64,000 bases of DNA. Source: Clostridiales bacterium (GTDB taxonomy: Bacteria; Bacillota; Clostridia; Lachnospirales; Lachnospiraceae). Of this stretch, positions 45,168-61,371 are shown in pieces (the first letter of the stretch is position 1; each line of letters begins with the position of its first letter). The position numbers and the translations under genes were made by a program. The notes under the pieces are model-generated. The model had not been told where the DNA came from. It saw only the letters and a program-made list of their open reading frames with translations, and ran no database searches. The stretch is taken from NCBI GenBank assembly GCA_012839295.1, contig DUNO01000013.1, forward strand, positions 186,001-250,000, in the 5' to 3' direction.

Positions 45168-45195
45168 TTACGATCTACATTTCATTTTCTATAAT
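45168..45195 (+). promoter_or_regulatory. candidate promoter of the crotonase gene
   Basis: TTTACG (45168-45173), a 16-base spacer and a perfect TATAAT (45190-45195), about 60 bases before the chosen ATG. The weak -35 suggests activator help. Confidence 0.5.
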
Positions 45196-45256
45196 GGCAT
45201 TAACAGTTAAATTGCTGTTTTCTATGAAAGCTAAATTAATCGTTGGAGGAAGAGAA

Positions 45257-46144
45257 ATGTCAAAAAAAGAAACAAATACAAATTATGTAAAATGGCCTAC
45301 CTTTGAAGAAATTAAGGAGATGTTCAAAGAGCATTTTATTATGGACAGACGTGAGGACGGTGTTGTTACCGTAAGAATGCACTGCAAGGGCGGCCCGTTG
45401 ATCTGGTCCATGGAATTGCATGATGCCATCGGCAAGATGTGGAGGCTTCTTGGTACGGACCGTGAGACAGAAATGATTATCTTCACCGGTACCGGTAATA
45501 TTTGGGTTACCGACTTTGAAGCTGCCAGCTGGGCACCGGAGGGTGATAATGCAGGCGAAACCCGCTATAACCATATGTTTGTTGATGGACGCCGTATGAT
45601 CATCACCATGATTCAGGATGTAGAGGTTCCTACCCTCGGTGTCCTCAGCGGCTCAGGCGGACATACGGAGCTTGCGCTGATGTGTGATCTTGCTATTGCA
45701 GCGGATGACATCACGGTACTTGACCCCCATATGCTTCCTGGAACCAATAACGTACCGGGAGACGGTATCCATAGCTGCTTCTTTGAATTAATGCCAAAGA
45801 GGTTTGCTGCCTGGTATCTGATGACAGGTGACAAGATGTCTGCCGAGGATCTGGTCCGCCTTGGAATGGTGTCTGAAATCGTACCAAGAGAGAAGCTCAT
45901 GGACCGTGCCTATGAAATCGCAGACATGCTGATGGCACAAAACAGGGTAGCAAGAAGACTTACCTCCCAGCTGATCAGAAGAAATTGGAAGAAGCGTATC
46001 TCTGACGATTTGGATATGGCCTTCGGAACAGAAATGTTTGGTATGTTTTGTGCAAATGAGCTTCACTCTGAGCTTCTTTCCATGATTCAATATCTTGGCT
46101 TGGAAGGAAAGATTGATCCGCCGCTGGCTGGTAAAATTAGATAA
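45257..46144 (+). CDS. crotonase-superfamily protein resembling 6-oxocamphor hydrolase (beta-diketone retro-Claisenase)
   Basis: A 295-residue crotonase-fold enzyme. Instead of the acyl-CoA-type oxyanion and Glu pattern of enoyl-CoA hydratases it has HTELALMCDLAIAADD and DPHMLPGTNNVPGDGIH. This matches the DxPHxxxGxVPGDGxH motif I recall from 6-oxocamphor hydrolase, which cleaves a cyclic 1,3-diketone by adding water. WRLLGTDRETEMIIFTGTG and FFELMPKRFAAWYLMTG also align. I infer cleavage of a 1,3-dicarbonyl, free or ring-bound. ATG 45257 follows GGAGG; upstream in-frame ATGs lack a site. First gene of the catabolic island; a terminator-like hairpin follows. Confidence 0.78.
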   Translation: MSKKETNTNYVKWPTFEEIKEMFKEHFIMDRREDGVVTVRMHCKGGPLIWSMELHDAIGKMWRLLGTDRETEMIIFTGTGNIWVTDFEAASWAPEGDNAGETRYNHMFVDGRRMIITMIQDVEVPTLGVLSGSGGHTELALMCDLAIAADDITVLDPHMLPGTNNVPGDGIHSCFFELMPKRFAAWYLMTGDKMSAEDLVRLGMVSEIVPREKLMDRAYEIADMLMAQNRVARRLTSQLIRRNWKKRISDDLDMAFGTEMFGMFCANELHSELLSMIQYLGLEGKIDPPLAGKIR

Positions 46145-46196
46145 TACATAGATATACGTTAACAAGTTTTTCAGGCAAGTGATTCCGGGTTAACAT

Positions 46197-46232
46197 AAAG
46201 GGCTGTTGTAATAGTAATTTCTTCAGCCCTTT
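46197..46232 (+). terminator. hairpin after the crotonase gene
   Basis: AAAGGGCTG pairs with CAGCCCTTT across an 18-base loop, followed by AAAAG rather than a T run. It may be a weak or partial terminator, or a processing/stability stem. Confidence 0.5.
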
Positions 46233-46283
46233 AAAAGAACCCAAATTAAAGCTATATGGCCTTCTGTTTCAAATCAGGGATAT

Positions 46284-46311
46284 TTGGTACGTTCAAGGTA
46301 AGTACTATAAA
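46284..46311 (+). promoter_or_regulatory. candidate promoter of the UroD-like/buk unit
   Basis: TTGGTA, a 16-base spacer and TATAAA (46306-46311), 18 bases before the ATG at 46329. Confidence 0.5.
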
Positions 46312-46328
46312 GGAAAGAGGAGAAGGAT

Positions 46329-47291
46329 ATGACGGAAAGAGAAAATATGCAGATGGTTTGGGATCATAAGCTTCCTGAATGGGTACCGATGATTAATACC
46401 GCCAGTCAGATTCTGATTACACCAGAGATTAACGACCGGTCACTTTTTCAAACCGGAAAGGATTGGTTCGGACTCACCTGGGAACTGGATCCGGAGCATC
46501 CGGAGCTAATGACTCATGTAAAGCCTAATATCAGCTTCTTTGACGATATGACCCGGTGGAAGGAATATATTCACTTTCCCAGTGTAAAAGATTTAAACTG
46601 GGAAATGATTGGTGCCCGGACAAAAGCCATGTGGTCAAAGAAAGAAGAACTTATGGGGTATGTGGTAGAAAATATAGGCGCATTTGAACGGTTAAATGCA
46701 ATGATGGGATTTGAAAACGGTCTATGTGCATTGTTTGAGACAGAGGATTATGCTGAATATGTAAATGCTTATGCCGATTATCGCATTGAACAGATGCATT
46801 ATATTAAAAAATATATGGATGCTGATTTTTTAGTGATGCATGATGATTGGGGAAACCAGGCGAATATGTTCATGGCACCGGATATGTGGAGAGAAATTTT
46901 CAAGGAGCCGGAGCGACGGATGGTGGAAGCCTGCAGGAATTTAGGCATGCACTATATGCATCATTCCTGCGGATATATTGAGCCTATAGTCGGTGACCTG
47001 ATAGAAATTGGGGTAGAATCCTGGCATGCAGTATCACCGGTGAACCATTGGAAGGAAATCAAGGAAAAGTATGGAGATAAAATAATCTTTGCAGGCTGTG
47101 TGGATCCTCATGTAACAGATGCACCGGGAGCAACGGAAGAGGACATACGCAAAGCAGTCCGGGATACCATTGATATCCTTGGTAAAAACGGGGGACTTTT
47201 GGCAAGCTCCGCTGTTATGTTCTCTACCGTTCAAGGAGTCGATGCAATTATTGATGATGAGGGCAAAAAGTACGGTAGGTATATTAAATAA
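46329..47291 (+). CDS. uroporphyrinogen-decarboxylase-fold protein, MtaA-type methyltransferase candidate
   Basis: A 320-residue TIM-barrel protein of the UroD/MtaA superfamily. It lacks the N-terminal RxPVWxMRQAGR signature of true HemE. It carries H212-S-C214-G (HHSCGYIEPIVGDLIEIGVES), the His-x-Cys zinc pair of MtaA/MtbA methyltransferases, and GCVDPH with Cys257. The third Cys normally found nearer the C terminus is not obvious there (ASSAVMF). MtaA-type enzymes move methyl groups between corrinoid proteins and thiols or folates; some relatives demethylate aryl ethers. No corrinoid gene is adjacent. Alternative: a decarboxylase or lyase of unknown substrate. Confidence 0.7.
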   Translation: MTERENMQMVWDHKLPEWVPMINTASQILITPEINDRSLFQTGKDWFGLTWELDPEHPELMTHVKPNISFFDDMTRWKEYIHFPSVKDLNWEMIGARTKAMWSKKEELMGYVVENIGAFERLNAMMGFENGLCALFETEDYAEYVNAYADYRIEQMHYIKKYMDADFLVMHDDWGNQANMFMAPDMWREIFKEPERRMVEACRNLGMHYMHHSCGYIEPIVGDLIEIGVESWHAVSPVNHWKEIKEKYGDKIIFAGCVDPHVTDAPGATEEDIRKAVRDTIDILGKNGGLLASSAVMFSTVQGVDAIIDDEGKKYGRYIK

Positions 47292-47388
47292 TAAAAGTGG
47301 CTCGGGGAGAAGAAAAATAAAATGACTCGTATTTCCTGTAATGGGAAAGTACCCGGATGCTCCATAAATTTTAGATAAGGGGAATGAA

Positions 47389-48522
47389 ATGAAAAGGATA
47401 TTTGCCATCAACTGCGGCTCCACTTCAACAAAGGTAGCGTATTTTGAAGACGATAAAATGATAAACAAGGTTTCGCTGGATATTACAGCTGAAGATTTAA
47501 GAAAAATGCCGAAGGTACTGGATCAGCTGGAATATCGAACGAATCAGGTAAAGAAATTTCTAGAGGATAATAATCTGGAACCTGCCAGTTTCGATATGAT
47601 TGTTGCAAGGGCTGGGACGATACCCTCTGTACCCTATGACGGTGCCTATGAAGTAAATGAGCTTATGATAGCGTCTGTTACCTATGCGCCGGAGGCCCAG
47701 CATGCCTCCACCTTATCCTGCCTCATTGCCAATCAATTGGTGAAGGGACGAAAGGTTCCGGTTATCATCTATGACCCCACCTGCGTGGACTCCGCAGATG
47801 AAATCGCTAAGATAACGGGTATTCCGGAAATCGTAAATATGCCAATTGCCCATCTATTAAATACCAAGATGGCAGGGATTACATATGCACAGTCCATCGG
47901 CAGGAATTATAAGGACTTAAACTTAATTATTATTCAGCTTGGGGGCGGTATTACCTTAGGATTTCACGACCATGGACGTATCTCTGACTGGGTATATGAT
48001 GATGAAGGTCCGATGTCACCCCAGCGCGCCGGTGCTATTCCGACAAGATATATGGCAAATTTCTGCTACGAGAAATTTAAGGAAGGAAAAACGCTTCAGG
48101 AGGTCAGAATGTACCTGTGCGGACAGAGCGGCCTGGTGGCGTATTTTGGAACCCAGGATGTCCGTGAGGTATCTGGGCTTATGGAGCAGGGGGATGAGCA
48201 GGCGGAAAAAATCCTGAAGGCCATGGCCTACCAGGTGGCAAAAAGCATCGGAAGCTTAGCGGTGACCAGGAACGGAAGGGTGGACCAGATCATCATCACG
48301 GGCGGTATTGCCCATAGCCGGCTTCTTACTGACTGGATTAAGGAGAAGGTGGAATTTATAGCGCCGGTATCCGTCATCCCCGGTGAACGGGAGATGGAGG
48401 CGTTGGCAGCGGGAGCACTCCGTGTACTTAACAAAGAAGAGGAAGTCCATGAGTACAATGTGTATCCGAAGGGCTACAGCTCCATTGAGGAAATCATCAA
48501 TAAACCAAACTATCTTGCATAA
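47389..48522 (+). CDS. buk: butyrate kinase
   Basis: A 377-residue acetokinase-family enzyme that makes ATP and butyrate (or another short/branched acid) from the acyl phosphate. Motifs: INCGSTSTKVAYF (phosphate 1), VARAGTIPSVPYDGAY, IYDPTCVDSADEIAKITG (butyrate kinase-specific), LGGGITLGFHDHGRISD and IITGGIAHS (adenosine). An AAGGGGAATG site precedes the ATG. Works with the phosphate acyltransferase at 49502 for substrate-level phosphorylation. The C-terminal tail is slightly longer than usual. Confidence 0.95.
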   Translation: MKRIFAINCGSTSTKVAYFEDDKMINKVSLDITAEDLRKMPKVLDQLEYRTNQVKKFLEDNNLEPASFDMIVARAGTIPSVPYDGAYEVNELMIASVTYAPEAQHASTLSCLIANQLVKGRKVPVIIYDPTCVDSADEIAKITGIPEIVNMPIAHLLNTKMAGITYAQSIGRNYKDLNLIIIQLGGGITLGFHDHGRISDWVYDDEGPMSPQRAGAIPTRYMANFCYEKFKEGKTLQEVRMYLCGQSGLVAYFGTQDVREVSGLMEQGDEQAEKILKAMAYQVAKSIGSLAVTRNGRVDQIIITGGIAHSRLLTDWIKEKVEFIAPVSVIPGEREMEALAAGALRVLNKEEEVHEYNVYPKGYSSIEEIINKPNYLA

Positions 48523-48570
48523 TAGGGAACTGCCCTTGGGGCATGTCTGAAAACCCATTGCGGTTTTCAA

Positions 48571-48633
48571 CTTAACGATCATTTGGCCGCTAGGCCACGG
48601 GGGGTCGGATGTGAAATGATCCTCATCTCATAC
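48571..48633 (-). repeat. 61-bp structured repeat element, copy 1 (minus orientation)
   Basis: Read on the minus strand it contains GATCATTTCACATCCGAC, a spacer, then the small hairpin GGCC-TAGC-GGCC, then AAATGATCGTTA. Outer arms GATCATTT / AAATGATC can pair around the inner hairpin. The same element occurs twice in tandem at 56831-56952. It fills the gap between buk and the BKACE gene. Confidence 0.85.
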
Positions 48634-48654
48634 TAGACAGAATGGAGGCATGAA

Positions 48655-49488
48655 ATGTCATTAGAAAATAAAGTAATTATAACAGCAGCCCTTACCGGTG
48701 CCATGACACCGAAGGAATTGAATCCGCACATACCGTTAAAGCCGGAGGAAATTGCGGAAGACGCTTATCAGTGCTGGAAGGCCGGCGCAGCAGTAGTCCA
48801 TCTCCATATGAGGAATGATCAGGGGCTGGGCACCATGGACAAGGAAAAATTTAAGAAAACCATAGATCTCATAAAGGAAAGAACAGATTGTGACGTAGTC
48901 ATCAACTGTACAACCTCCGGTGATAACAGGGCGGGCTATGAGGAGCGCATGGCGCATCTGGAATATGTGAAGCCGGAACTGGCATCCTTTGATGCCGGCT
49001 CCTTCAACTGGATGCCCTTTGGAATCTTTGATAATGCACCCCAGTTCCTGGAGCCCCTTGGCCGGAAAATGAAAGAACTTGGTGTAAAGCCGGAGCTGGA
49101 GATCTTTGATTCCGGGTTTATGAATATCGTAAAATATTATGTAAAGCAAGGAGTGCTCGACACACCCTGCCATTATCAATTTGTGTTAGGGGTTCTGGGC
49201 GGTATGGAAGCTTCCGTCAAGAATCTCCAGTTCCTCTATGAACTGCTGCCGGAAGGATCTACCTGGTCTGCTTTTGGACTTGGCAAACAGCATATGCCGA
49301 TCCTGTATACGACCCTGGCGCTGGGCGGACATATCCGTGTGGGTCTGGAGGACAATGTGTACTACAGCAAGGGAACCCTGGCAACCAATGTTATGCTGGT
49401 GGAAAGAGCGGCCAGGGCAATCCGTGAATTCGGAAAGGAGCCTGCTACACCGGAGGAAGCCAGGCAGATTCTAGGTCTTGGAAGGTAA
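48655..49488 (+). CDS. beta-keto acid cleavage enzyme (BKACE, DUF849)
   Basis: A 277-residue zinc TIM-barrel enzyme of the 3-keto-5-aminohexanoate cleavage (Kce) family, which condenses a beta-keto acid with acetyl-CoA to give acetoacetate and a new acyl-CoA. Zinc ligands H49 and H51 (VVHLHMRND) and E232, with catalytic D233 and R228 (IRVGLEDN), are all present, so it should be active. The substrate-specificity residues cannot be decoded by eye. Lysine fermentation partners (aminomutases, kdd) are absent, so a different beta-keto acid, such as a 3,5-dioxo acid, is likely. GGAGG site before ATG 48655. Confidence 0.9.
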   Translation: MSLENKVIITAALTGAMTPKELNPHIPLKPEEIAEDAYQCWKAGAAVVHLHMRNDQGLGTMDKEKFKKTIDLIKERTDCDVVINCTTSGDNRAGYEERMAHLEYVKPELASFDAGSFNWMPFGIFDNAPQFLEPLGRKMKELGVKPELEIFDSGFMNIVKYYVKQGVLDTPCHYQFVLGVLGGMEASVKNLQFLYELLPEGSTWSAFGLGKQHMPILYTTLALGGHIRVGLEDNVYYSKGTLATNVMLVERAARAIREFGKEPATPEEARQILGLGR

Positions 49489-49501
49489 TTGGGTGGAAGC
49501 T

Positions 49502-50404
49502 ATGTATAAAAATTATGAAGCATTGATTAAGGCACGCCTCTCTGGCAGCAGTAAGCCAAAGAAAGCCATAGTAGCCGGAGCAAATGATGACCATGTGCTG
49601 GAAGCAGTCTTCCTGGCACAGGAAAAAGGCTATGCCTATCCGGTTCTGGTGGGCGAGGAAGGTGAAGTGACGGGGATAATCAAGGATTTGGGCTTTTCGG
49701 ACAGACCCTATGAGATCCTTCCATGTACCGGGCAGAGGAATCCTTCCGAAGTGGCTGTAGCATTGATTCATGAAGGAAAAGGCGACTTTATTATAAAAGG
49801 AAAGCTGGAGACAAGGGAGCTTTTAAAGCCCATCCTGAACAAGGAGAATGGCCTGAACCAAAAAGGCTTTATCACTCATTTTGGTCTGATGCAGATCAAA
49901 GGCTATCATAAGCTGCTGGCCATGAGCGACTGTGCGGTAATTCCATATCCGACGCTTGAGGATAAGAAGAAGATCATAACCGCAGGCATGGAAGCCCTCC
50001 GAAAGCTCGGGTATGAAGAGCCTATAGTAGGAGCCCTATGTGCAGTTGAAACAGTCAGTGAGAAAATGCCGGAAACAGTGGAGGCAAAAGCGCTTCAGGA
50101 TATGGCAGAAGCGGGAGGGTTCGGAAAGGGCAGGGTAGTAGGTCCAATATCCTTTGACCTGGCAACCCGCAAGGAAGCGGCATTAATCAAAGGATATGAT
50201 TCACCCTATGCAGGTGAGGTGGATATGTTATTGGTGCCTCAGATGGTAACCGGCAATGTCATGAGTAAAATCTGGAATGCAGACCCGGATAATATACTGG
50301 CAGGCTGCCTGATCGGTGCGGATATACCGATTGTCCTTACTTCCAGAAGCGCAAGCATGGATGAGAAGCTTTATTCCATACTGTTATGTAATATGCTCAG
50401 CTGA
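49502..50404 (+). CDS. ptb: phosphate acyltransferase (phosphotransbutyrylase-like)
   Basis: A 300-residue Pta/Ptb-family enzyme converting acyl-CoA and phosphate to acyl phosphate. Seen: KKAIVAGANDDHVLEAV, VALIHEGKGDFIIKGKLETRELL, LLAMSDCAVIPYPTLEDKKKII, and GRVVGPISFDLATRKEAALIKG with VDMLLVPQMVTGNVM. Length fits Ptb. I use ATG 49502, preceded by GGTGGA; a TTG at 49478 would overlap the BKACE gene. It supplies butyrate kinase with substrate; buk and ptb flank the BKACE gene, so all three probably share a pathway. Confidence 0.9.
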   Translation: MYKNYEALIKARLSGSSKPKKAIVAGANDDHVLEAVFLAQEKGYAYPVLVGEEGEVTGIIKDLGFSDRPYEILPCTGQRNPSEVAVALIHEGKGDFIIKGKLETRELLKPILNKENGLNQKGFITHFGLMQIKGYHKLLAMSDCAVIPYPTLEDKKKIITAGMEALRKLGYEEPIVGALCAVETVSEKMPETVEAKALQDMAEAGGFGKGRVVGPISFDLATRKEAALIKGYDSPYAGEVDMLLVPQMVTGNVMSKIWNADPDNILAGCLIGADIPIVLTSRSASMDEKLYSILLCNMLS

Positions 50405-50408
50405 TCAT

Positions 50409-51320
50409 TTAAACAGACAAAGGCGGTTGTTTAGGGCACAGGCTTTTAACAATATCAATAAATTTGTTAACCAACTCCGTTGTGGCAGATTTTTTGTAGA
50501 GCATGACAATGTTACCGTTGGCTGAGAAGTTAACAAGGTTAATGTAGGAGATATTGTGGAATCCGCTTTTTGCTTTGGTAAGGGACGTTGGTACAATGCC
50601 ATAGCCCAAGCCTAAGGAGGCTTCCAGCATGACGGAATCGGTTGTATTTACATAATTTATATTGATTTTCTTGCTGCCGGCAAAGGTCTGCAGCTCATGG
50701 AGGATTAGCTTCATAAAGGGCGGTTCGATATAGGAGGGAAGGATCAGGGGTAATTTTCGGACGATTTCAGGAATGGTTTCTACGGTAGGATTCTTATAAA
50801 GCTCGGAGGATACAGCTAATGAGAAGTCGTCATTGCCAATAGAAATACTCTCCAGCTCCTCATAACCCGAAGCAGCAAAATCATAGGTGAAGCCGATATT
50901 GTAGATATCGTACTGAATCGCGCAGGGAATTTCATTAAACTCATACAGCTCGACAGTTAATTTAATGAAAGGATATTTTTCCCTGAATATAGTTAGGGCA
51001 TCGGACAGTACCGGGCATAGCTTTCCCGGAGCTGTGATGCGGAGAATACCGGAATTACCTTTGTCAGCCAGCTGGACATTTTTAATTACGGTTTCCATAT
51101 GCTTAATGAAAAGGTCACATTCACTTTCAAATACCTTTCCGGCCTCAGTTAATTCAATCTGTTTATTATTGCGGATGAACAGCTTAACATCCAGCTCCTC
51201 CTCCAGTGCCATGATATAGCGGCTGAGGGTGGACTGGCTGATATAGAAATGCTTGGCGGCCCTGGTTATGTTCTTATATTTGGCTATATATTGGAAATAT
51301 TGTAATGTTTCTAGATTCAT
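50409..51320 (-). CDS. LysR-family transcription regulator
   Basis: A 303-residue LysR protein: winged helix at residues 1-60 (MNLETLQYFQYIAKYKNITR, HFYISQSTLSRYIMALEEEL) and a periplasmic-binding-protein-like effector domain (LRITAPGKLCPVLSDAL, LGLGYGIVPTSL). ATG 51320 has a GGGAGG site and the usual start of the family; a longer frame from 51353 is rejected. Convergent with ptb and divergent from the thiolase gene, so it probably controls the thiolase-to-CoA-transferase block through the 51321-51467 gap, and perhaps the whole island. Its ligand would reveal the pathway substrate. Confidence 0.92.
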   Translation of the reverse strand: MNLETLQYFQYIAKYKNITRAAKHFYISQSTLSRYIMALEEELDVKLFIRNNKQIELTEAGKVFESECDLFIKHMETVIKNVQLADKGNSGILRITAPGKLCPVLSDALTIFREKYPFIKLTVELYEFNEIPCAIQYDIYNIGFTYDFAASGYEELESISIGNDDFSLAVSSELYKNPTVETIPEIVRKLPLILPSYIEPPFMKLILHELQTFAGSKKININYVNTTDSVMLEASLGLGYGIVPTSLTKAKSGFHNISYINLVNFSANGNIVMLYKKSATTELVNKFIDIVKSLCPKQPPLSV

Positions 51321-51467
51321 TAAGTTTATCCTCCCAAATTCATAGTCTCTCACTATAGTTTACAATACATTGGAAGTATAATCAATGAAGATTGGACAAT
51401 TGTGAAAACAAAATAATCCGCGTAAAAGTGTCATACATCATTAAGTTTAAAAGCGAGGAGTGCTAAC

Positions 51468-52622
51468 ATGGAAAAATGCATTATAGCGGCCTATGGCCGT
51501 TCTGCTATCGGCAAAGCAGGAAAAGGTTCCTTAGCCGCGGCAAACCCGGTTGACTTCGGGGCAGAGGTGCTTAAAGGGGTCGTAGCCAGAGTGCCGGAAC
51601 TGGATCCAAATGAGATTGACGATGTCATTGTGGGCTGCGCCATTCCGGAAGGAAAAATGGGATTAAATCCGGCGCGGAACCTTGTACTTCGGGCAGGGCT
51701 GCCGGATACGGTGCCGGGGCAGACCGTCAACCGGTTCTGCGCATCAGGGATACAATCCGTAGCCATCGGAGCGTCCATGATCCTGAGCGGATTACAGACG
51801 GTGGTCATCGCAGGAGGTGTAGAATCCATGTCCTGTCCGGTTATTTCATCAGATCCACAGTATTTGGATGAATGGCTGCTAAACAATACGGATACCTATA
51901 TGCCCATGGGAATCACGGCGGAAAATGTTGCAGAGAGGTTTCATATCAGCAGGAAAGCCATGGAGGAGATGGCTGTAGAAAGCCATGCAAAGGCTTCGAA
52001 AGCAGTAGAAAGCGGCCTCTTTGATCCTGAAATTATCCCGGTAACAGGCTATGGCCTGGAAGGCAATCCCGTAAAATTCGTCAGTGATGAATGCTACCGG
52101 AAGGGTACAAATGCGGAAACCCTGGCTACCTTAAAGCCCTGCTTTAAAGAGGATGGCCTGGTGACGGCAGCTACTTCCTCCCAAAGAAGTGATGGGGCGG
52201 CATTTGTCGTACTGATGTCAGAAAGTAAAGCAAGGGAGCTGGGAATTAAGCCCCTGGCAAGCTTTGTGTCCTTTGCTGTGGAAGGCTTGGATCCCGCGTT
52301 CATGGGTCTTGGACCGATTTATGCGGTTGAGGCGGTGCTGGAAAAAGCCGGATTGCAGCTGGAGGATATGGATGTTATTGAACTAAATGAAGCCTTTGCG
52401 TCACAGGCAATTGCTACGATTGATAAGCTGGAGCTGGACAAAAGCAAGGTTAACCCCAGAGGTGGAGCCTTGGCACTCGGCCATCCCTTAGGAGCGACCG
52501 GAGCCATTCTTCTTGGAAAGGCAATGAATTATCTTCAGGCAAGCAATGGCAGATACGGACTCATCACAATGTGCATCGGCGGCGGTATGGGTGCGGCCTG
52601 CATTATAGAAATGGAAAATTAG
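51468..52622 (+). CDS. thiolase (acetyl-CoA C-acyltransferase)
   Basis: A 384-residue thiolase with all catalytic residues: Cys91 (NRFCASGIQS), the His pair in ELNEAFASQA context and GHPLGATGA, and the second Cys in CIGGGMGAA. It either splits beta-ketoacyl-CoA or forms acetoacetyl-CoA from acetyl-CoA. The sequence is nearer degradative FadA/PcaF-like thiolases than ThlA to my eye, but this is uncertain. First gene after the divergent LysR; the MFS carrier follows after 11 bases. Confidence 0.92.
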   Translation: MEKCIIAAYGRSAIGKAGKGSLAAANPVDFGAEVLKGVVARVPELDPNEIDDVIVGCAIPEGKMGLNPARNLVLRAGLPDTVPGQTVNRFCASGIQSVAIGASMILSGLQTVVIAGGVESMSCPVISSDPQYLDEWLLNNTDTYMPMGITAENVAERFHISRKAMEEMAVESHAKASKAVESGLFDPEIIPVTGYGLEGNPVKFVSDECYRKGTNAETLATLKPCFKEDGLVTAATSSQRSDGAAFVVLMSESKARELGIKPLASFVSFAVEGLDPAFMGLGPIYAVEAVLEKAGLQLEDMDVIELNEAFASQAIATIDKLELDKSKVNPRGGALALGHPLGATGAILLGKAMNYLQASNGRYGLITMCIGGGMGAACIIEMEN

Positions 52623-54055: not shown

Positions 54056-56140
54056 ATGAGTAAAGTAAGGTTAGAAATCGATGGTTATAAGATTGAAGCA
54101 GATGAGGGCAAGAATTTATTACGGGCAGCGCTTGACGCCGGAATTTACATACCCCATCTATGCTATCATCCCGATTTGACGCCGCTGGGCAATTGTAAGC
54201 TATGTGGCGTTGAGCTTCAAGGGGAGCCAAATATTGTGCAATCTTGTGAAACAATTGTCAAAGAAGGCATGGTGGTCAATACAAAATCCGAGGCCGCGAA
54301 CAAGCTTCGGATGACAGCACTGGAGCTCATGCTGGCAAGCCATCCCAAGGACTGTACCTCCTGTGATAAATATCTGAACTGCGAGCTCCAGGCTTTGATG
54401 CAGTACATGGGGGTAGCCCATTCCAGATTGCGGGAGGTCGAGAAAGAGAATACCAAAATTGCCGTATCGGACCGGTTAATCAAAAAAGAAATGTACCGCT
54501 GCATCCAGTGCGGCAGATGTGTCAGGGTATGCGAAGAGGTCAGGGGCGTCGGTGTGCTGAAGATCAATAAGAAGGACGGAGAAACCTATATCAGCACGAA
54601 GGACGATGTACCTCTGATTGATACGGAATGCAGATTTTGCGGAGCCTGTGTCGAGGTCTGTCCGACAGGGGCAATCCAGGATGTGAAAGGAATTTTCCCT
54701 ACGGAAGGATCCCGCAATATGACCCTGGTTCCCTGCAAATATCACTGTCCGGCCCACACGGATATACCGCTCTATGTAAGGCTCGTGAAAGAGGGGAAAT
54801 ACAGCGATGCGGTAGCTGTTATCCGGGAAAAGCTGACCTTTCCCCATTCCCTCGGGCATATTTGCTCCCATGTCTGTGAATCGGGATGTAAGCGCACTTA
54901 TATCAACGAGCCTATTGCAATCAGGGAAATCAAGAAATTTGCCGTAGAGAATGATAAAGACCAGACCTGGCGGCAGGGTGTTCTTCGGGGTGAAGCAAAG
55001 GGGAAAAAGGTTGCCATTGTCGGAGGCGGTGCGGCAGGCATGACAGCGGCCTATTACCTGGCAAAAAAGGGATATGGGGTGGAAGTATACGAGCGCCAGC
55101 CGGTACCCGGCGGCATGCTTTCCTTCGGGATTCCAAAGTACAGGCTGCCGCAGCAGATTGTAGATGAGGAAATCGAAATCCTAAAGGAAGAGGGCATCAA
55201 GGTCCATGCAAATTCCAATATCCAATCCCTGGAGGAATTAAAGGATAAAGGCTATGATGCTGTCCTGCTGACAGTCGGAGCAGGAAAGGGTAAACGCCCC
55301 CCGGCCTTTGACAAGGGCTGGAGCAATGCCATGGATGCAGTGGATTTTTGCAGAAAAGCCATTGAAGGAACATTGCCGGAGCTGGGAAAGACGGTGACGG
55401 TTTACGGCGGCGGAAATGTTGGGTTTGACTGTGCCAGGACAGCGAAGAAGCTTGGAATTAAACAGGTTTTTATCGTCTGCATGGAAGCAAGGGAGCAGAT
55501 GCTGGCAGACCAGGAGGAGATAAGCTGTGGTCTGGAAGAGGGCATTGAAATTCTAAACAGCAGATCAATTGTTAAAATTGAAGAAGAGGGCAATGCCATA
55601 TCAGCCCTGTCCCTGATTGGAATCAAGAGCTTTAAATTCACAAAGGACGGCCTGGAGCTGGAACCTGTGGAGGGCTCAGAGGAGATCCTAAAGACAGATA
55701 CCCTGGTCTTTGCAACAGGGCAGCAACCGGATTTAAAGGCATCCTTTGGCATTGAGCTGGTCAGAAACAGCTTTGCAAAGGTGGATCAGAGCCTGCAGAC
55801 CAGTGAAAAGGGGGTATTTGCAGCCGGTGATGTCGTCTATGGAACAAAGTCAGTGGTAGAAGCCATCGCCTCCGGAAGGCAGGCAGCAATCAATATCGAT
55901 AAATACCTGGGCGGTGACGGCAATATTGAAGAAACGCTGTATGAGCGCAGGAAGCCTGAGGCAAACATCGGAACCGTAGAGCTTTTCTCGGAGCTTGAGA
56001 GAATTGACCGGTTTAAGGACGCCGGTGATGCAACAGCCGAATCCCTCCGGTGCCTGCAATGTGACCTCCGCACGGAGCTCCAGAAGGTGAAATACTGGGT
56101 GGATCCCCACTTTAAGACGGTGAAGGGGGTGTCGGAATGA
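54056..56140 (+). CDS. NuoG-like Fe-S / GltD-like NAD(P)H oxidoreductase fusion
   Basis: A 695-residue electron-input subunit. Order: [2Fe-2S] domain (C36, C47, C50, C64), NuoG His-Cys [4Fe-4S] (H96, C100, C103, C109), a 2x[4Fe-4S] ferredoxin (CIQCGRCVRVC; CRFCGACVEVC), an Fe-S domain of the GltD/dihydropyrimidine-dehydrogenase type (HCPAHTDIPLYVRL, ICSHVCESGC), then FAD (VAIVGGGAAGMTAAYYLA) and NAD(P) (VTVYGGGNVGFDCARTA) Rossmann folds. It would oxidise NAD(P)H and feed electrons along the clusters. Start uncertain (54044 or 54056). Its last four bases overlap the next gene. Likely donor to the flavoprotein at 56978. Confidence 0.88.
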   Translation: MSKVRLEIDGYKIEADEGKNLLRAALDAGIYIPHLCYHPDLTPLGNCKLCGVELQGEPNIVQSCETIVKEGMVVNTKSEAANKLRMTALELMLASHPKDCTSCDKYLNCELQALMQYMGVAHSRLREVEKENTKIAVSDRLIKKEMYRCIQCGRCVRVCEEVRGVGVLKINKKDGETYISTKDDVPLIDTECRFCGACVEVCPTGAIQDVKGIFPTEGSRNMTLVPCKYHCPAHTDIPLYVRLVKEGKYSDAVAVIREKLTFPHSLGHICSHVCESGCKRTYINEPIAIREIKKFAVENDKDQTWRQGVLRGEAKGKKVAIVGGGAAGMTAAYYLAKKGYGVEVYERQPVPGGMLSFGIPKYRLPQQIVDEEIEILKEEGIKVHANSNIQSLEELKDKGYDAVLLTVGAGKGKRPPAFDKGWSNAMDAVDFCRKAIEGTLPELGKTVTVYGGGNVGFDCARTAKKLGIKQVFIVCMEAREQMLADQEEISCGLEEGIEILNSRSIVKIEEEGNAISALSLIGIKSFKFTKDGLELEPVEGSEEILKTDTLVFATGQQPDLKASFGIELVRNSFAKVDQSLQTSEKGVFAAGDVVYGTKSVVEAIASGRQAAINIDKYLGGDGNIEETLYERRKPEANIGTVELFSELERIDRFKDAGDATAESLRCLQCDLRTELQKVKYWVDPHFKTVKGVSE

Positions 56141-56793
56141 TCTGTGACAAAGACAGCAAGATTTTTACAAAATGGGAGGAAGCCGGCAAGGAAGCCTGTG
56201 TGGTGGATTATTGCATGAATCTCATGGGCACGGCAAAAAATGAATCCTGCGGTAAATGTGTCCTGTGCCGGGAAGGAACCTGGCAGGTATATCAGATCAT
56301 GAGGGATATTACAGAGGGAAAGGCAGAAAGTGAAGACTTTGAATTGCTTGCGGATTTGCTGGGACAGATACAGAATTACGCCAGCTGTGAAATGTCAAGG
56401 AATGCTGCAGCTGTCTGCATGGAGCTCCTGAAAAGTCATGAAGAAGAGTGGGATATGCATATCCGCCGGAAACGGTGTACCAATCTGGTATGCAAAGGAA
56501 CCTATACGCTCTACGTGGATCCTGATATTTGTGATGGCTGCGGCCAGTGTCTAAAGAGCTGCCCCCAGGAAGCCATCGACGGCGGAGACGGACTGATTCA
56601 TGTCATCAGGACTGACCAGTGCAATAAATCTATGGTTTGTGTATCAGTCTGTCCAAAGGCAGCGATCAAAAAGGCAGGGGCAGTGAAGCCGAAGATTCCG
56701 GGTGAGCCCGTTCCTGTGGGCAGCTTTGGGGCTTCTGAAGGTTCTGGGGAAGGAGGGGGAAGAAGGCGGCGCAGACGTGGAGATGTGGAATAA
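56137..56793 (+). CDS. truncated NuoF-like Fe-S subunit with ferredoxin domain
   Basis: A 218-residue protein. Residues 1-105 match only the C-terminal [4Fe-4S] helical domain of NuoF/HydB (NESCGKCVLCREGTWQ, ASCEMSRNAAA); the FMN/NADH-binding part is missing. Residues 125-180 are a two-cluster ferredoxin (CDGCGQCLKSC, with a modified second set CNKSMVCVSVC). The tail is Gly/Arg-rich (GGGRRRRRRGDVE). It overlaps the preceding gene by ATGA and must form a complex with it, NAD(P)H oxidation then being done by the GltD-like part. Confidence 0.85.
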   Translation: MICDKDSKIFTKWEEAGKEACVVDYCMNLMGTAKNESCGKCVLCREGTWQVYQIMRDITEGKAESEDFELLADLLGQIQNYASCEMSRNAAAVCMELLKSHEEEWDMHIRRKRCTNLVCKGTYTLYVDPDICDGCGQCLKSCPQEAIDGGDGLIHVIRTDQCNKSMVCVSVCPKAAIKKAGAVKPKIPGEPVPVGSFGASEGSGEGGGRRRRRRGDVE

Positions 56794-56830
56794 CGAAGGA
56801 TTTTATTAACAAGATCATAACCGGTTTACG

Positions 56831-56952
56831 GTTAGTGTGAAATGAAGATCATTTCACATCCGACATTGAGTGACCTAATGGTCAAATGATCGTTAGTGTG
56901 AAATGAAGATCATTTCACACCCGACACCTGATGGCCTGATGGCCAAATGTTC
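56831..56952 (+). repeat. 61-bp structured repeat element, copies 2 and 3 in tandem
   Basis: Two directly repeated 61-bp units (56831-56891, 56892-56952). Each opens with GTGTGAAATGA-AGA-TCATTTCACA, then CCGAC, a spacer, a hairpin (GACC-TAAT-GGTC in the first, GGCC-TGAT-GGCC in the second) and AAATGATCG or AAATGTTCG. The paired changes keep the small stem. TCATTT can pair either with the preceding AAATGA or with the distal AAATGA, giving two exclusive folds. They lie directly before the ribosome site of the flavoprotein gene. Confidence 0.9.
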
Positions 56953-56977
56953 GTTAATATGAAAGGAGAAAGTATTC

Positions 56978-58495
56978 ATGGGCACTATGTTAGAAGCGGA
57001 TGTTATTGTTATTGGAGGAGGAGCATCGGGAATAACGGCAGCTGTTGCTGCAGCAGAAAAAGATGCCAGTGTCATTGTGCTGGAGAAAGGAAGCACCACC
57101 GGCGGAGCTGCCAACATGGGGATGGGCATCTTCGCAGTTGAGTCGAAATACCAGAAGGCACAGCTGATTGACTTCACAAAGGAAGACGCCTTTAATCTTC
57201 TGATGAACTACACCCACTGGAGGGTGGATGCCAGGCTGGTAAGAAAGTATATGGAACAGTCCGGCAATACCATTGACTGGCTGGAAACAATGGGGATTGA
57301 ATTCCTTGGAGCCTATAAGTATTTTGAGAAATCAACACAGACCTGGCATGTGGTTAAAACAAGGGGGAGCAATGCTCCGGCGGAAAGAGCGGCCTCCAAC
57401 ATGTTCAGGGCCCTTACGGAACGGGCGGAAGAGCTGGGAGTACAAATAAAGTACAATACCAAGGCAACCAGGATTCTTTTAAAAGACGGTTATGTTGCCG
57501 GAGTTGAACTGACCGGTGCGGATGGTGAAACCGTTACGGCAGAGTGTAATGCTGTAATTGTTGCAACCGGAGGCTTTGGAGATAATCCCAAGATGATCCA
57601 TGACATCCTGGGATATGAATGGGGCAAGGACCTGCACTCCTTTAGAATCCCCGGGGTTCAAGGGGAAGGCCTTAGGATGCTTTGGGAGGCGGGAGCAGGT
57701 AAAACAGAGCCGACAATGGAGCTTACCTATACAACACCGGGAGTAACGGATATTTTTAAAACCCTCAGTGAGACTATGCGCCAGCCAAACCTTATGGTGA
57801 ACCTGGACGGCTACCGCTTCTACAATGAAGAAATTATGAACAATACAGTATTCACCGGCAATGCCATCTCATTGCAACGGGAAAGGATGGCCTTTACCAT
57901 TATTGATGACAGCATCCTGGATACCTACCGTAAAAATGGCCTGGATTATGTGACCGTCCACCATAATATCAAGACCGTAGATAAATGGGATAAGGAAATT
58001 GAAAGCTATCTTAGCGGTGGCCAATCAGAAACGGCAGGGCTTGCAGAGCTTCATGATGAAAACCAGAAGCACCAGCAGAATGTGTACGTAGCCGATACTT
58101 TGGAAGAACTGGCAACGCTGACCGGGATCAACCTGGAAAATCTCAAGGAGACCATTGAGGAATATAACAGGTCGTGCACGGAGTCAGACCAGATGTTCTT
58201 TAAAAAGCAAAAGTACATGAAGCCTTTCAAGGGCGGCAAGTATTATGTGGCAAGGCACTATCCGGCAGGCTATGGCAGCCTGGGCGGTGTAAAGACCAAT
58301 GATAAGCTGGAGGTCCTCGATCCTTCCGGCATCAAAATCCCGGGGCTTTATGCCAGCGGTACGGATGCCTGCAATATCTATGGTGACAGCTATTGCTTCT
58401 TCCTGCCCGGAAATACCATGAGCTTTGCCGTTAACAGCGGAAGGATGGCTGGCTATAATGCGGTCGATTATATGGATTCTGATGAATTTAAGTAG
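56978..58495 (+). CDS. fumarate-reductase-type FAD-dependent oxidoreductase
   Basis: A 505-residue soluble flavoprotein of the FAD_binding_2 family (fumarate, urocanate and 3-ketosteroid-type reductases). FAD motif VIVIGGGASGITAAVAAAEK with VLEKG, the TGGAANMGMGIFA loop, VIVATGGFGDNPKM, and near the end GLYASGTDACNIYGDSY and GNTMSFAVNSGRMAG. There is no signal peptide, FMN-binding or cytochrome domain, so electrons probably come from the Nuo-like pair upstream. It reduces (or oxidises) a C=C next to a carbonyl; the substrate is unknown. AAGGAG site before ATG. Confidence 0.88.
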   Translation: MGTMLEADVIVIGGGASGITAAVAAAEKDASVIVLEKGSTTGGAANMGMGIFAVESKYQKAQLIDFTKEDAFNLLMNYTHWRVDARLVRKYMEQSGNTIDWLETMGIEFLGAYKYFEKSTQTWHVVKTRGSNAPAERAASNMFRALTERAEELGVQIKYNTKATRILLKDGYVAGVELTGADGETVTAECNAVIVATGGFGDNPKMIHDILGYEWGKDLHSFRIPGVQGEGLRMLWEAGAGKTEPTMELTYTTPGVTDIFKTLSETMRQPNLMVNLDGYRFYNEEIMNNTVFTGNAISLQRERMAFTIIDDSILDTYRKNGLDYVTVHHNIKTVDKWDKEIESYLSGGQSETAGLAELHDENQKHQQNVYVADTLEELATLTGINLENLKETIEEYNRSCTESDQMFFKKQKYMKPFKGGKYYVARHYPAGYGSLGGVKTNDKLEVLDPSGIKIPGLYASGTDACNIYGDSYCFFLPGNTMSFAVNSGRMAGYNAVDYMDSDEFK

Positions 58496-58587
58496 TTTAC
58501 ATGCAGGAGCCGGATATCAGAAGCTGGATTGATGCTCAGATAAAATCATACATAACAGATTAAATAATATATGGAAGAGGTAATTAA

Positions 58588-58677
58588 ATGTACATTACAT
58601 CCAATCACCATGGTTTTAATTCCTGTGACTGGTTAGTACCAAATAAAAAATATATTATGGGGGTTTACTATGTTTAA
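58588..58677 (+). CDS. 29-codon frame overlapping the start of the second MFS carrier
   Basis: GAGGTAATTAA precedes an ATG that opens a 29-codon frame (MYITSNHHGFNSCDW onward). Its TAA ends eight bases inside the carrier gene, an overlap typical of translational coupling, and the GGGGG site of the carrier lies inside it. No family is recognised. It could be a leader peptide or a chance frame. Confidence 0.35.
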   Translation: MYITSNHHGFNSCDWLVPNKKYIMGVYYV

Positions 58678-59956
58678 AAATAAGAAATTTGCAGGCTATT
58701 CAATAATATTCATGATTCTTGGCGTTGCTTATATGTTCTTTTATTCCGGGCTCCAGAATGACCATCTCAACATCCTGACACCATTTCTTCAGGAGACCTA
58801 TGGCTGGTCGGATCTAAAGATTACGAATCCGGTAACCGTTGGCGCAATTATCGTTATCGTGCTTTATCTTGTAATTGGTACCCTGTTTGTTAAATACGGG
58901 GTTAAGAAGGTACTGATTCCCAGCATTGTAATAATGGCAGTGGCCTGCGTCGGCATCGCTATGGCGGGCGAGAATTATATGCTGTATGCCATCAGCATCT
59001 TTTTGATCCGTATCCTTGTAGTACCGTTGCAGATGGGCGGCTTCATGCTCTGCGCTAACTGGTTTATCAAATACCGTGGGCGTGTCATGGGAATCATTAC
59101 TGCCGGAAGCCCTTTGATGTCAGTTGTCGGCATCGGCTTATTAACTTCCCTGGTGGGAACCTTCGGTCTGAATACCTATATTATGATCGGAGCCATATTA
59201 TTGGTTATAGCGATTGTAACAGCCTTTGGTATCAAGGATACTCCTGAGGAGCTTGGTCTTTATCCCGATGGTGCAGACCGCGCTCCGGTATCTGAAGCTC
59301 AGGAATCGGGGGGAGCTTTGACTGTAAAACAATTACTTAGCGAAGCAAGAGCCTGGAAACTGATTATTTCCTATGGTATCCTTCAATTTGTTATTGTTGC
59401 AATGATGGCATATATGGCGGTGCGTTATATCAGCCTAAGCTCACCGGAGGATGTTCCGAACCTTTTTGTAAGCAAAGGATTGCTGTGGCTTTCCATCGGA
59501 GCATTAGTAGGTATTCCCATGAGCTATGTCCTGGGCTGGATTGATGATAAAGTTGGATCCATCAAGGCATCCTTGGTTCTTAATGTATTATTCCTGTTTG
59601 CGGTAATACCTCTGGCAATCATGCCTGTCGGTGGAAATGTTGCACTGATGGCAGTTTGGGCATTTGGTGTTGCCTGCATGACGGGCGGCCTGCCAACCAT
59701 GCATCCCTGCGTTACATCCTATGTATACGGACGTAAGCACTATATGGCAGCCAACAAATGGATCATGACCATCCAGGCGATCCCGATGGCCTTTGCATTA
59801 ACTTTTATGGGCGCTTTCAACCAGATGGGACAATTGACAACGGCTTACTATATCATGATAGGATTGCTGGTAGTATCCTTTATTGTAATCATGACAATGA
59901 AAAACATACCTGATGCTAATGAAGCGGACAGGGACTACAGTAAAAATACAAATTAA
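58670..59956 (+). CDS. MFS carrier, OFA/monocarboxylate-type
   Basis: A 428-residue twelve-helix carrier, distinct from the one at 52634. Seen: FYSGLQNDHLNILTPFLQ in the first helix, LQMGGFMLCANWFIKYRGRVMGIITAGSPLMSVVG (shortened to the key RGRVMGIITAG) and GIKDTPEELGLYPDG before the central loop. Such carriers import short organic or aromatic acids. It follows the flavoprotein gene and is closed by a terminator. Two carriers in one island suggest separate import and export. Confidence 0.88.
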   Translation: MFKNKKFAGYSIIFMILGVAYMFFYSGLQNDHLNILTPFLQETYGWSDLKITNPVTVGAIIVIVLYLVIGTLFVKYGVKKVLIPSIVIMAVACVGIAMAGENYMLYAISIFLIRILVVPLQMGGFMLCANWFIKYRGRVMGIITAGSPLMSVVGIGLLTSLVGTFGLNTYIMIGAILLVIAIVTAFGIKDTPEELGLYPDGADRAPVSEAQESGGALTVKQLLSEARAWKLIISYGILQFVIVAMMAYMAVRYISLSSPEDVPNLFVSKGLLWLSIGALVGIPMSYVLGWIDDKVGSIKASLVLNVLFLFAVIPLAIMPVGGNVALMAVWAFGVACMTGGLPTMHPCVTSYVYGRKHYMAANKWIMTIQAIPMAFALTFMGAFNQMGQLTTAYYIMIGLLVVSFIVIMTMKNIPDANEADRDYSKNTN

Positions 59957-60008
59957 CAGGAAAGATCCTATTGAATTCATAGAATTCATGGGGATTGGAC
60001 TAAAAATC

Positions 60009-60041
60009 AGACGAACAGGCTTTGGTCTGTTCGTCTTTTTA
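60009..60041 (+). terminator. Rho-independent terminator after the second MFS gene
   Basis: AGACGAACAG pairs perfectly with CTGTTCGTCT, eight-base loop, then TTTT. It separates the MFS gene from the CoA-transferase genes, which need readthrough or their own promoter. Confidence 0.9.
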
Positions 60042-60068
60042 ATAGGTAATAAAATTTGAGGTGATTGG

Positions 60069-60725
60069 ATGATAAATAAGATAATAGATAAAGAAGCATT
60101 TAAAGCGGTACTAAAAGATGATATGACAATTATGTTCGGTGGATTCATGGCTTGCGGCACATCGGATGTACTGGTGGAGGCAATCTGTGAAAGTGGAATA
60201 AAAAACATTACAGCTATTTGCAATGATGCCGGATTTGAGGATAGGGGACTTGGTAAAATTATAAAGAACGGGCAGGTCAAAAAACTCTATGCTTCCCATA
60301 TCGGACTCAATCCGCTGGTGGGCAAGATGATGTCGGAGGGTATGTTAGAGGTGGAATTAAGCCCCCAGGGAACGCTGGTAGAACGAATCCGTTGTGCAGG
60401 CGCGGGTCTTGGCGGTGTCCTGACACCAACGGGCCTGGATACTGACGTAGAGCTGGGAAAATGCATCATAAAGGTTCAGGGTAAGAAATATCTGCTGGAG
60501 GAGCCCTTGCGTGCTGATCTTGCGGTTATCAGGGGAAGATATGTCGATAGGCTGGGAAATGTGGTCTATGAGGGAACTGCCAGGAACTTCAATCCTGTTA
60601 TGGCAACAGCGGCTGATTTGGTAGTTGCAGGTGCGGATGAAATTGTGGAAACAGGTAAGCTGGGCCAGGAATGCATTGCTACACCCCATGTGCTGGTCGA
60701 CTACATTGTGAAGGAGGAAATATAG
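60069..60725 (+). CDS. 3-oxoacid/acetoacetate-type CoA-transferase subunit A
   Basis: A 218-residue alpha subunit of family I CoA-transferases (AtoD/CtfA/ScoA). [34 protein letters not shown], and [23 protein letters not shown] match the family. With subunit B it moves CoA between acyl-CoA and a free acid, for example acetoacetate or butyrate. GAGGTGATT site before ATG; B starts one base after the stop. Which acids it uses is not readable. Confidence 0.93.
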
Positions 60726-60726
60726 T

Positions 60727-61371
60727 TTGAAAGAGCTGATTGCAAAAAGGGTAGCAAAAGAACTTCATGATGGGGATCTGGTCAATCTTGGGATCGGCCT
60801 TCCCACCTTAGTAGCAAACTATATCCCGGAGGATATCCAGATATACCTGCAGTCTGAGAATGGCCTCATCGGTCTTGGGCCGGAGCCGACAAAGGAAGAA
60901 TTCAACAGGAATATAGCAAATGCGGGCGGGGTGCCGGTCACAGTGCTAAAGGGTGGAATGTTTTTTGACTCAGCATTTTCCTTCGCCCTAATCCGGGGAG
61001 GGCATGTGGATGTTACTGTCCTGGGAGCGCTCCAGGTGGACCAAAACGGTAATCTGGCAAACTGGATTATACCGGGCAAGCTGGTACCGGGCATGGGAGG
61101 AGCCATGGATCTTGTGACAGGCTCAAAAACCGTCATTATTGCTATGACCCACACCAACAAAGGTGAGCCTAAAATCTTGAAAAAATGTACATTGCCACTT
61201 ACGGCAAAGGGTCAGGTAGATATGATTATTACGGAAATGGGAGTTATGAAAATAACAAAAGAGGGAATTGTCCTGACGGAGATTAATCCGGAATATACAG
61301 TTGAGGATGTTAGAAATGCAACGGAAGCGGAGCTTATCATTGATGACGGCCTTAAACGGATGGAGATCTGA
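60727..61371 (+). CDS. 3-oxoacid/acetoacetate-type CoA-transferase subunit B
   Basis: A 214-residue beta subunit. The catalytic Glu lies in [10 protein letters not shown], and [45 protein letters not shown] and [15 protein letters not shown] follow in family order. The start is TTG 60727 with a perfect AAGGAGG eight bases upstream. It may trap acetoacetate released by the BKACE reaction as acetoacetyl-CoA, linking that step to butyrate formation. Last gene of the island. Confidence 0.93.

Follow-up and report, generated by a model that had tools for sequence, protein, structure and literature searches.

A candidate anaerobic retro-Claisen pathway with its own Hsp90, marked by a beta-diketone hydrolase-like crotonase in a Lachnospiraceae genome

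The closest described counterpart of the gene cluster considered here is the phloroglucinol pathway of Clostridium scatologenes (PGR, DPGC, TfD, and TAL). As far as the portions of PMC10470551 drawn on here go, that pathway has in common with the cluster a retro-Claisen ring opening, C-C cleavage by a member of the BKACE (beta-keto acid cleavage enzyme) family, a thiolase, a CoA-transferase, a kinase/phosphotransacylase ATP step, and an MFS carrier. Its ring opener belongs to a Mn-dependent "cyclase" family, whereas the cluster holds a crotonase; since the hydrolase families differ, the crotonase is not simply the known phloroglucinol ring opener. Neither a flavoprotein electron wire nor an Hsp90 is described for C. 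scatologenes in those portions, whereas both occur here. Two further comparisons are offered by the crotonase-fold beta-diketone hydrolases, namely, 6-oxocamphor hydrolase (OCH; 1o8u, 1szo) and the Anabaena enzyme (ABDH; 2j5g, 2j5s), and by the BKACE of lysine fermentation (Kce). The cluster lies in a 64,000-nt stretch of DNA (the window; all coordinates are positions within it) of a Clostridiales bacterium (Lachnospiraceae; GCA_012839295.1, contig DUNO01000013.1, forward strand, 186,001-250,000). An earlier note, made from the same DNA, had described positions 45168-61371 as a catabolic island for a 1,3-dicarbonyl compound.

The cluster is interpreted here as a LysR-controlled anaerobic retro-Claisen pathway for a 1,3-dicarbonyl compound which includes its own Hsp90, a reading to which we give about an even chance. 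It builds on gene content, active-site residues, conservation of the neighbourhood, a single Hsp90 clade, and a shared promoter element, from which we infer every reaction and the substrate. A NADH-fed set of Fe-S proteins and a flavoprotein would produce a 1,3-diketone by reducing an oxygenated ring or a conjugated ketone, and the crotonase would open this diketone by water-driven retro-Claisen cleavage. A short-chain dehydrogenase (SDR) may then adjust a hydroxyl or keto group to give a 3-oxo acid, and BKACE would convert this acid and acetyl-CoA to acetoacetate and an acyl-CoA. Acetyl-CoA would be regenerated by the CoA-transferase and thiolase, and Ptb-Buk would yield ATP and a short acid. 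Most likely, the route runs parallel to phloroglucinol fermentation nearly step by step, with BKACE and the downstream families shared and the reductase and hydrolase families different. A literature search at the level of titles and abstract openings, with subscription papers mostly outside its reach, found no description of this cluster.

Carbon-carbon cleavage and the likely substrate

Both sequence and fold place the crotonase nearer to OCH and ABDH than to CoA-dependent crotonases, in agreement with the diketone-hydrolase type proposed for it earlier. The best PDB sequence matches are 2j5g and 1o8u, at about 100-105 bits, and the next kind of crotonase in the list follows at 54 bits. Five catalytic or near-catalytic residues, H45, H122, H145, D154, and E244 in OCH numbering, are invariant in all 25 crotonases compared (25 of 27 sequences, all distinct; two fragments of at most 250 residues were excluded). 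An AlphaFold model built from 20 sequences has a mean pLDDT of 71.4, and its first 12 Foldseek matches are all OCH or ABDH chains (TMt 0.82-0.88). The identity to these hydrolases is 24-26% in structural alignment. W63 and D111, invariant in the cluster crotonases, differ from both OCH and ABDH, and the cluster enzyme, unlike OCH and ABDH, stands beside fermentation genes. It most likely performs retro-Claisen cleavage of a 1,3-diketone. The gene had been thought to begin at 45168; it starts instead at the ATG at 45257, after a GGAGG ribosome-binding site, and 45152-45195 reads as its promoter. The protein comparisons used a start at 45254, one codon longer.

Relatives were sought in genome contigs, with one genome per species for 84,980 species, by means of short peptide patterns, so the 23 crotonase loci found (57-98% identical to the window's enzyme) are a lower bound. 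They span Bacillota, Actinomycetota, Spirochaetota, and others, with hosts including Herbinix, Sedimentibacter, Anoxynatronum, Sinanaerobacter, Cellulomonas, Actinotalea, and Propionibacteriaceae, as well as metagenome-assembled genomes (MAGs) of Spirochaetales, Deltaproteobacteria, and Thermoleophilia. Among kin the enzyme is rare: 3 of 99 genomes match at E<=1e-30, the own genome counted, with a close form only in the own genome and G012, and at E<=1e-50 the own genome is the only one of 391 of the class.

Neighbouring genes were located by tblastn with per-gene identity limits of 30-65%, after extra flanks had been added for 13 of the 23 loci. Near the crotonase are found BKACE (16 loci), buk (15), Hsp90 (14), ptb (13), thiolase and NuoG-GltD (12 each), SDR (11), NuoF-C, flavoprotein, and CoA-transferase subunits A and B (10 each), OYE and the first MFS carrier (8 each), and the second MFS carrier and LysR (6 each); the LysR regulator is 57-85% conserved in its six loci. 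When only the 17 loci that are 12 kb or longer are considered, the counts are BKACE 16, buk 14, ptb 13, Hsp90 and thiolase 12, NuoG-GltD 11, and flavoprotein 9. The association goes beyond chance, since the neighbourhood recurs across phyla, and the co-occurrence of crotonase and BKACE, for which the earlier note proposed a search, is conserved. The arrangement varies. Hsp90 and crotonase of L024 have a LysR and an MFS gene between them; in L012, Hsp90 lies 8 kb away; and L019 (20.8 kb) has no partner genes near its crotonase, the BKACE, buk, SDR, thiolase, CoA-transferase, OYE, and flavoprotein of that genome being on another contig (L042).

BKACE was compared in 20 distinct sequences, the window's included; three of them (L042, L048, and L049) are encoded elsewhere than at the crotonase locus. 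The Zn ligands H46, H48, and E230 and the residues E143, R226, and D231 are kept in all 20, as in Kce, whereas Asn108 is replaced by Asp and Glu14 is lost throughout (V in 11, M in 7, I in 1, and W in 1; Met in the window protein). According to PMC10470551, it is Glu14 that holds the lysine intermediate by its 5-amino group, and the phloroglucinol enzyme has Trp16 there. Because Glu14 is lost in all 20, the substrate most likely carries no amino group at that position. The presence of a BKACE other than the lysine enzyme, part of the earlier proposal, is thus upheld. A lysine-type reading of the gene set is very improbable: the best-named BKACE model is indeed that of the lysine enzyme (NF052387), but the 310.3 bits reached are under its cut-off of 382, and the crotonase scores about twice as many bits with diketone hydrolases as with enoyl-CoA hydratases and has all five diketone-hydrolase residues. 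Kce itself was rejected as the identity of the BKACE on the cut-off and the loss of Glu14. Nor does the window protein match the known triacetate acetoacetate-lyase, since it reaches 211.7 bits with NF053538 (cut-off 430) and has Met rather than Trp at the Glu14 place. In 24 genomes, no protein exceeds this 3,5-dioxohexanoate cut-off (best 416.7, in G101, from a different gene), and among the 20 BKACEs the only Trp is in L048, whose gene lies away from the crotonase. Triacetate itself is therefore a doubtful substrate.

The substrate that we favour is a ring of the phloroglucinol or resorcinol type, or the corresponding acid. Opening a 1,3-dione ring by retro-Claisen cleavage yields a 5-oxo acid, and by carbon count a 3-oxo acid ready for BKACE arises only from a 1,3,5-trioxygenated ring or if the SDR later oxidizes C3. 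Read in this way, the gene list is a counterpart of phloroglucinol fermentation, or of a resorcinol route which joins it at 3,5-dioxohexanoate.

A variant phloroglucinol pathway, which we consider possible but improbable, would have the flavoprotein set or SDR reduce phloroglucinol or a derivative, the crotonase replace the Mn-dependent dihydrophloroglucinol cyclohydrolase, the SDR replace the 3-hydroxyacyl-dehydrogenase-type enzyme, and BKACE act as triacetate lyase. The loss of Glu14 suits it, and the regulon offers a candidate for every step of the published route so far as this is set out in the portions of PMC10470551 used. The BKACE score and the absence of any genome above the cut-off stand against it, as does the SRR of the SDR where, in the same portions, the published reductases have TR(S/N); moreover, there is no known reason to swap so many enzymes for one substrate. 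A Pfam scan of 26 ORFs of the window found no Mn-dependent cyclase-family cyclohydrolase; no genome-wide search was made.

A fermentative resorcinol pathway can be put forward with similar reserve. The flavoprotein set would be a ferredoxin/NADH-linked resorcinol reductase and the crotonase a cyclohexane-1,3-dione hydrolase giving 5-oxohexanoate, which OYE would desaturate, a second crotonase or other hydratase would hydrate, and the SDR would oxidize to 3,5-dioxohexanoate before BKACE and the later enzymes act. The Fe-S-rich NuoG/NuoF/ferredoxin wire suits this route, as do the two crotonase genes in each of L008, L009, and L010, OYE in 8 of the 23 loci together with an element-marked operon containing a TRAP carrier (see below), and the 3-oxocyclohexyl ligand of the ABDH structure 2j5s, to judge from its title. 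On the other side, no enzyme of the window can be assigned to desaturation or hydration, and OYE is missing from its cluster. To our knowledge, the fermentative resorcinol route is described from enzymology only, and the cluster, if it is this route, would supply the genes. In favour of the route, resorcinol reductase is reported in PMC10470551, citing Kluge 1990, to be ferredoxin-dependent and to be followed by hydrolytic ring cleavage; against it, the one paper on this reductase that the literature search found names no gene for it in the portions used.

Anaerobic opening of phenolic rings bears on the loss or retention of plant carbon in guts, peat, and digesters. With the cluster, a probable second retro-Claisen route can be addressed as a delimited set of genes and a regulon in named, testable strains, which include Sedimentibacter saalensis DSM 13558, S. 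acidaminivorans DSM 24004, Anoxynatronum buryatiense Su22, and Sinanaerobacter chloroacetimidivorans BAD-6.

The redox genes agree with the NADH-type electron wire that had been proposed beside the flavoprotein. In the GltD-like domain, an acidic Glu occupies the place of the Arg pair that NADPH enzymes have after beta-2, in all 13 distinct homologues including the window's; this exchange is of the NADH type, so the domain likely uses NADH. The adjoining protein had been called NuoF-like: the C-terminal Fe-S domain of NuoF is present, and the NADH/FMN domain was not found with Pfam or NCBIfam. The flavoprotein reaches 300.9 bits with its nearest NCBIfam model, vinyl phenol reductase (cut-off 600), and GDSYCF(x)(x)PGN is kept in all 13 orthologues, the window's included. 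A fumarate reductase function was rejected since the active-site Arg and His of flavocytochrome c3 have no counterpart in the alignment. Searched genome-wide, 15 of 23 related genomes have an orthologue 63-94% identical, G120 has only matches of at most 50%, and seven have none at E<=1e-80. Four more flavoproteins of the own genome (contigs C70, C48, C69, and C13 of G000) are 47-49% identical to that of the cluster. The SDR is 83, 82, and 79% identical to its orthologues in L007, L024, and L006 and has the motif ASRR after beta-2, presumably of NADP type.

A pathway-linked Hsp90

The Hsp90 is the surprising part of the gene set. Together with the SDR and the shared promoter element, it was overlooked earlier: the genes of 45168-61371 are real, and the set also extends to the Hsp90 (43194-45062) and the SDR (38651-39412). 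Hsp90 occurs near the crotonase in three phyla (Bacillota, two Cellulomonas, and the Spirochaetales MAG). In a tree of 61 rows, comprising 15 cluster Hsp90s, 17 other Hsp90s of crotonase-bearing genomes (13 of them from genomes that also carry a cluster Hsp90, the other 4 from three genomes lacking one), and 29 of other genomes of the class, the 15 form one clade with support 100/99. A single change suffices to separate them from the 17 in 100% of 200 bootstrap trees. The four ATPase positions (E, D, G, and R) are kept in all 15.

It might be argued that the Hsp90 stands beside the cluster by chance or serves as a general stress chaperone. Hsp90 is indeed common, 111 of 391 class genomes matching the window's at E<=1e-90 (with 33-40% identity once the own genome is set aside), and none lies near the crotonase in 9 of the 23 loci. 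Against this are its recurrence in three phyla as one clade and the presence of a second, different Hsp90 at E<=1e-10 in 13 of the 15 genomes that carry the cluster type, the window's own genome having two in all and G107 and G121 no second one; in addition, the separated Hsp90 gene of G119 has its own copy of the pathway element. A chance or general role is accordingly quite unlikely, and the Hsp90 is co-inherited with the pathway and, in Bacillota, probably co-regulated with it.

The position of the Hsp90 in the gene neighbourhood points most likely to the crotonase as its client, matured by the chaperone. The crotonase rather than the flavoprotein is preferred because in L021 and L022 crotonase, Hsp90, CoA-transferase, BKACE, and thiolase adjoin and those loci contain no flavoprotein set; the genome of L022 (G117) does encode an orthologue of the flavoprotein on a different contig. 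That a single metabolic pathway can depend on a bacterial Hsp90 has precedent: HtpG is required for the production of albicidin and of colibactin/yersiniabactin, according to titles cited in PMC8082187. Here, unlike in those cases, the Hsp90 belongs to a paralogue clade of its own, which accompanies the pathway and carries its promoter element. The HtpG of the albicidin and colibactin cases is presumably the general cellular one. If confirmed, an Hsp90 dedicated to one catabolic route would be a rare natural client system, in which the client is obvious, the promoter inducible, and closely related clients live without the chaperone. The most specific form of the proposal, in which a private Hsp90 lineage has spread between phyla with the crotonase and is co-induced in resorcinol- or resorcylate-type breakdown by a flavoprotein-Nuo-fragment reductase, a cyclohexane-1,3-dione hydrolase, and BKACE, is offered tentatively and with low confidence.

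Promoter element and regulon

A 27-base element is common to eight Hsp90-crotonase intergenic regions. It has the form of a LysR-type operator, a T-N11-A dyad upstream of -35, and reads ATRC-N7-GMAT, then TACRAT, a spacer, and -10. In the window, TATAAT lies 17 bases after the -35-like TTTACG, a spacing that by eye fits six of the eight regions. The LysR regulator would read this element, and the genes are probably controlled together. The long form occurs once in the window, where 0.02 are expected at up to 3 mismatches, a pattern derived from these very sites. A 17-base short form is useless alone, since its 25 matches are not above the 31.5 expected; only the long form is specific.

A matrix was built from the eight intergenic sites, and the best scores in 20 shuffled windows were 9.6-21.0. 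Outside the training set, it found the separated Hsp90 and crotonase of L024 (35.2 and 35.1), sites before the thiolase of L007 (28.6) and a transporter gene of L009 (30.2), one at an MFS gene of L037 (26.0), and those of the first crotonase of L008 (24.3) and L010 (26.3) and the second crotonase of L009 (26.2). Weaker sites (13.6-17.7) precede the SDR in the window, L006, L007, and L024, the last three with the same variant element as the window, where this site is the second-best match (17.3; one of 20 shuffles scored higher). Scattered matches of 12-22.7 without a visible promoter role (for example, L044 22.7, L004 17.4, L022 17.2, and L035 17.2) are within the shuffle range. Between the crotonase and thiolase promoters of the window, L004, and L005, no k-mer of 9 or more bases is shared.

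A generalised exact pattern, composed with the SDR sites in view, was found at 25 places in 25 genome entries; as G012 and G099 are the same genome, these are 22 places in 24 whole genomes. Eighteen of the 22 precede cluster-type genes (crotonase, Hsp90, SDR, thiolase, MFS, and a TRAP-transporter/OYE operon), of which the G103 site counts as before an MFS gene only with a later start codon, and four lie inside unrelated ORFs. The reversed pattern gave no match. In G119, where Hsp90 and crotonase are separated, each has its own copy with 0 mismatches. Loose matches number 23 in 12 genomes, 16 of them at cluster or regulon promoters; of the other seven, the three inspected (G119:C8, G102:C5, and G099:C128) have no related gene nearby, the rest being at G000:C8, G100:C1, G119:C2, and G102:C6. 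The marked operon of TRAP carrier and OYE in Anoxynatronum is a hint that the substrate is an organic acid. Eight Bacillota genomes have the element by exact match and G105 and G116 only at 3 mismatches, while 14 of the 24 genomes, the Actinomycetota included, have no exact match beside a cluster gene; the element is therefore a Bacillota feature.

Several points weigh against the proposed pathway. A simple cyclohexane-1,3-dione would give 5-oxohexanoate and no beta-keto acid, and the BKACEs stay under the 3,5-dioxohexanoate cut-off and, with one exception in 20, lack the Trp of the phloroglucinol enzyme, as detailed above. The confidence of the crotonase model is only middling. In the Hsp90 tree, the 29 outside rows are the best 29 matches among other genomes of the class, L009, L012, and L013 have long branches, and the tree program warned that the join of L012 and L013 may be false. 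Five of the nine loci without Hsp90 nearby are long (L014, L015, L016, L019, and L020), and no cluster-type Hsp90 was found when their genomes were searched; as buk, BKACE, and ptb are still present in four of the five, the enzymes can do without this chaperone. Near the crotonase of the 17 long loci, SDR occurs in only 9, OYE in 8, and CoA-transferase in 10. With the crotonase matrix, the elements before the SDR score weakly and within the shuffle range, and no Actinomycetota genome has an exact match.

Gene map and neighbouring genes

The genes named earlier are real ORFs of the families stated, by Pfam and NCBIfam matches (Table 1). The UroD-like protein had also been counted as a pathway member, which does not hold: it is absent from all 23 related loci at the 35% identity limit of tblastn and is therefore rejected as a core decarboxylase or demethylase. 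In G012 (L028), buk directly follows the crotonase, with no UroD-like gene between. Seven more matches at 26-31% occur in the own genome. The protein keeps an H-x-C resembling the Zn motif of MtaA, but the later Cys is unmatched in the alignment. At 31407-37064, the window carries a methanol-type methyltransferase set (CobW, MtaB, a corrinoid protein, and a RACo-type activator), to which the MtaA-like protein might be linked rather than to the diketone cluster.

Table 1. Positions of the cluster genes and promoter features in the window
Feature	Position	Strand	Basis or remark
SDR (short-chain dehydrogenase)	38651..39412	-	Pfam adh_short_C2; orthologue of cluster SDR in related loci
Variant LysR-type element ATAC-N7-GCAT + TACAAT, upstream of SDR	39524..39546	-	Matrix and pattern matches
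Unknown-family protein between SDR and Hsp90	39859..40857	+	No Pfam match at 1e-8; membership uncertain
Hsp90 (HtpG) paralogue, divergent to crotonase	43194..45062	-	NCBIfam HtpG 436.3 bits, cut-off 371
Crotonase promoter	45152..45195	+	LysR-type box ATGC-N7-GAAT 45152-45166; -35 TTTACG 45167-45172; -10 TATAAT 45190-45195
Crotonase-superfamily beta-diketone hydrolase-like enzyme (putative retro-Claisen C-C hydrolase)	45257..46144	+	Sequence, fold, and residues
UroD/MtaA-like protein	46329..47291	+	PF01208; probably outside the system
Butyrate kinase (buk)	47389..48522	+	TIGR02707 358.6, cut-off 289.1
BKACE, non-lysine type	48655..49488	+	PF05853 345.1 bits
Phosphate butyryltransferase-like (ptb)	49502..50404	+	PF01515; NCBIfam PRK05805 235.2 bits, under cut-off 399
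LysR-type regulator	50409..51353	-	PF00126/PF03466
Thiolase	51468..52622	+	TIGR01930 432.7, cut-off 240.55
MFS carrier, monocarboxylate (lactate) type	52634..53854	+	NF049980 336.9, cut-off 320
NuoG N-terminal Fe-S domain fused to GltD/NfnB-like FAD domain	54056..56140	+	Alternative start 54044
NuoF C-terminal Fe-S domain + 2x[4Fe-4S] ferredoxin domain	56137..56793	+	Without FMN domain
FAD_binding_2 flavoprotein	56978..58495	+	Nearest NCBIfam model vinyl phenol reductase
Second MFS carrier	58670..59956	+	PF07690
CoA-transferase subunit A (AtoD type)	60069..60725	+	PF01144; TIGR02429 192.6, cut-off 128.5
CoA-transferase subunit B (AtoA type)	60727..61371	+	PF01144; TIGR02428 317.6, cut-off 243.55

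Some related loci carry further genes. A 4-hydroxybutyryl-CoA dehydratase-like protein (L009:10965-12578; 1u8v, 281.8 bits) and a protein 71% identical to it (L049:11486-13006) are both encoded near crotonase-like and BKACE genes, perhaps a sign that these species use a 4-hydroxyacyl-CoA step. In Actinomycetota, a phosphotriesterase-like gene, possibly a lactonase, stands beside BKACE (L014:6188-7165, also L015/L050 and L042). From these two kinds of gene, the A-ring of flavan-3-ols comes to mind as a substrate; this is only an idea, for which the literature search listed no supporting gene work.

Around the window cluster itself, the unknown-family protein is 40% identical to counterparts which likewise lie between SDR and Hsp90 in the Sedimentibacter loci L007 and L024. 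A chemotaxis receptor (MCP) is encoded at 41271-42959, also between the SDR and Hsp90 genes, and could sense the pathway substrate. Right after the CoA-transferase genes, at 61488-63218, follows a CspB-type subtilisin-like protease, which is also found beyond the flavoprotein in L046.

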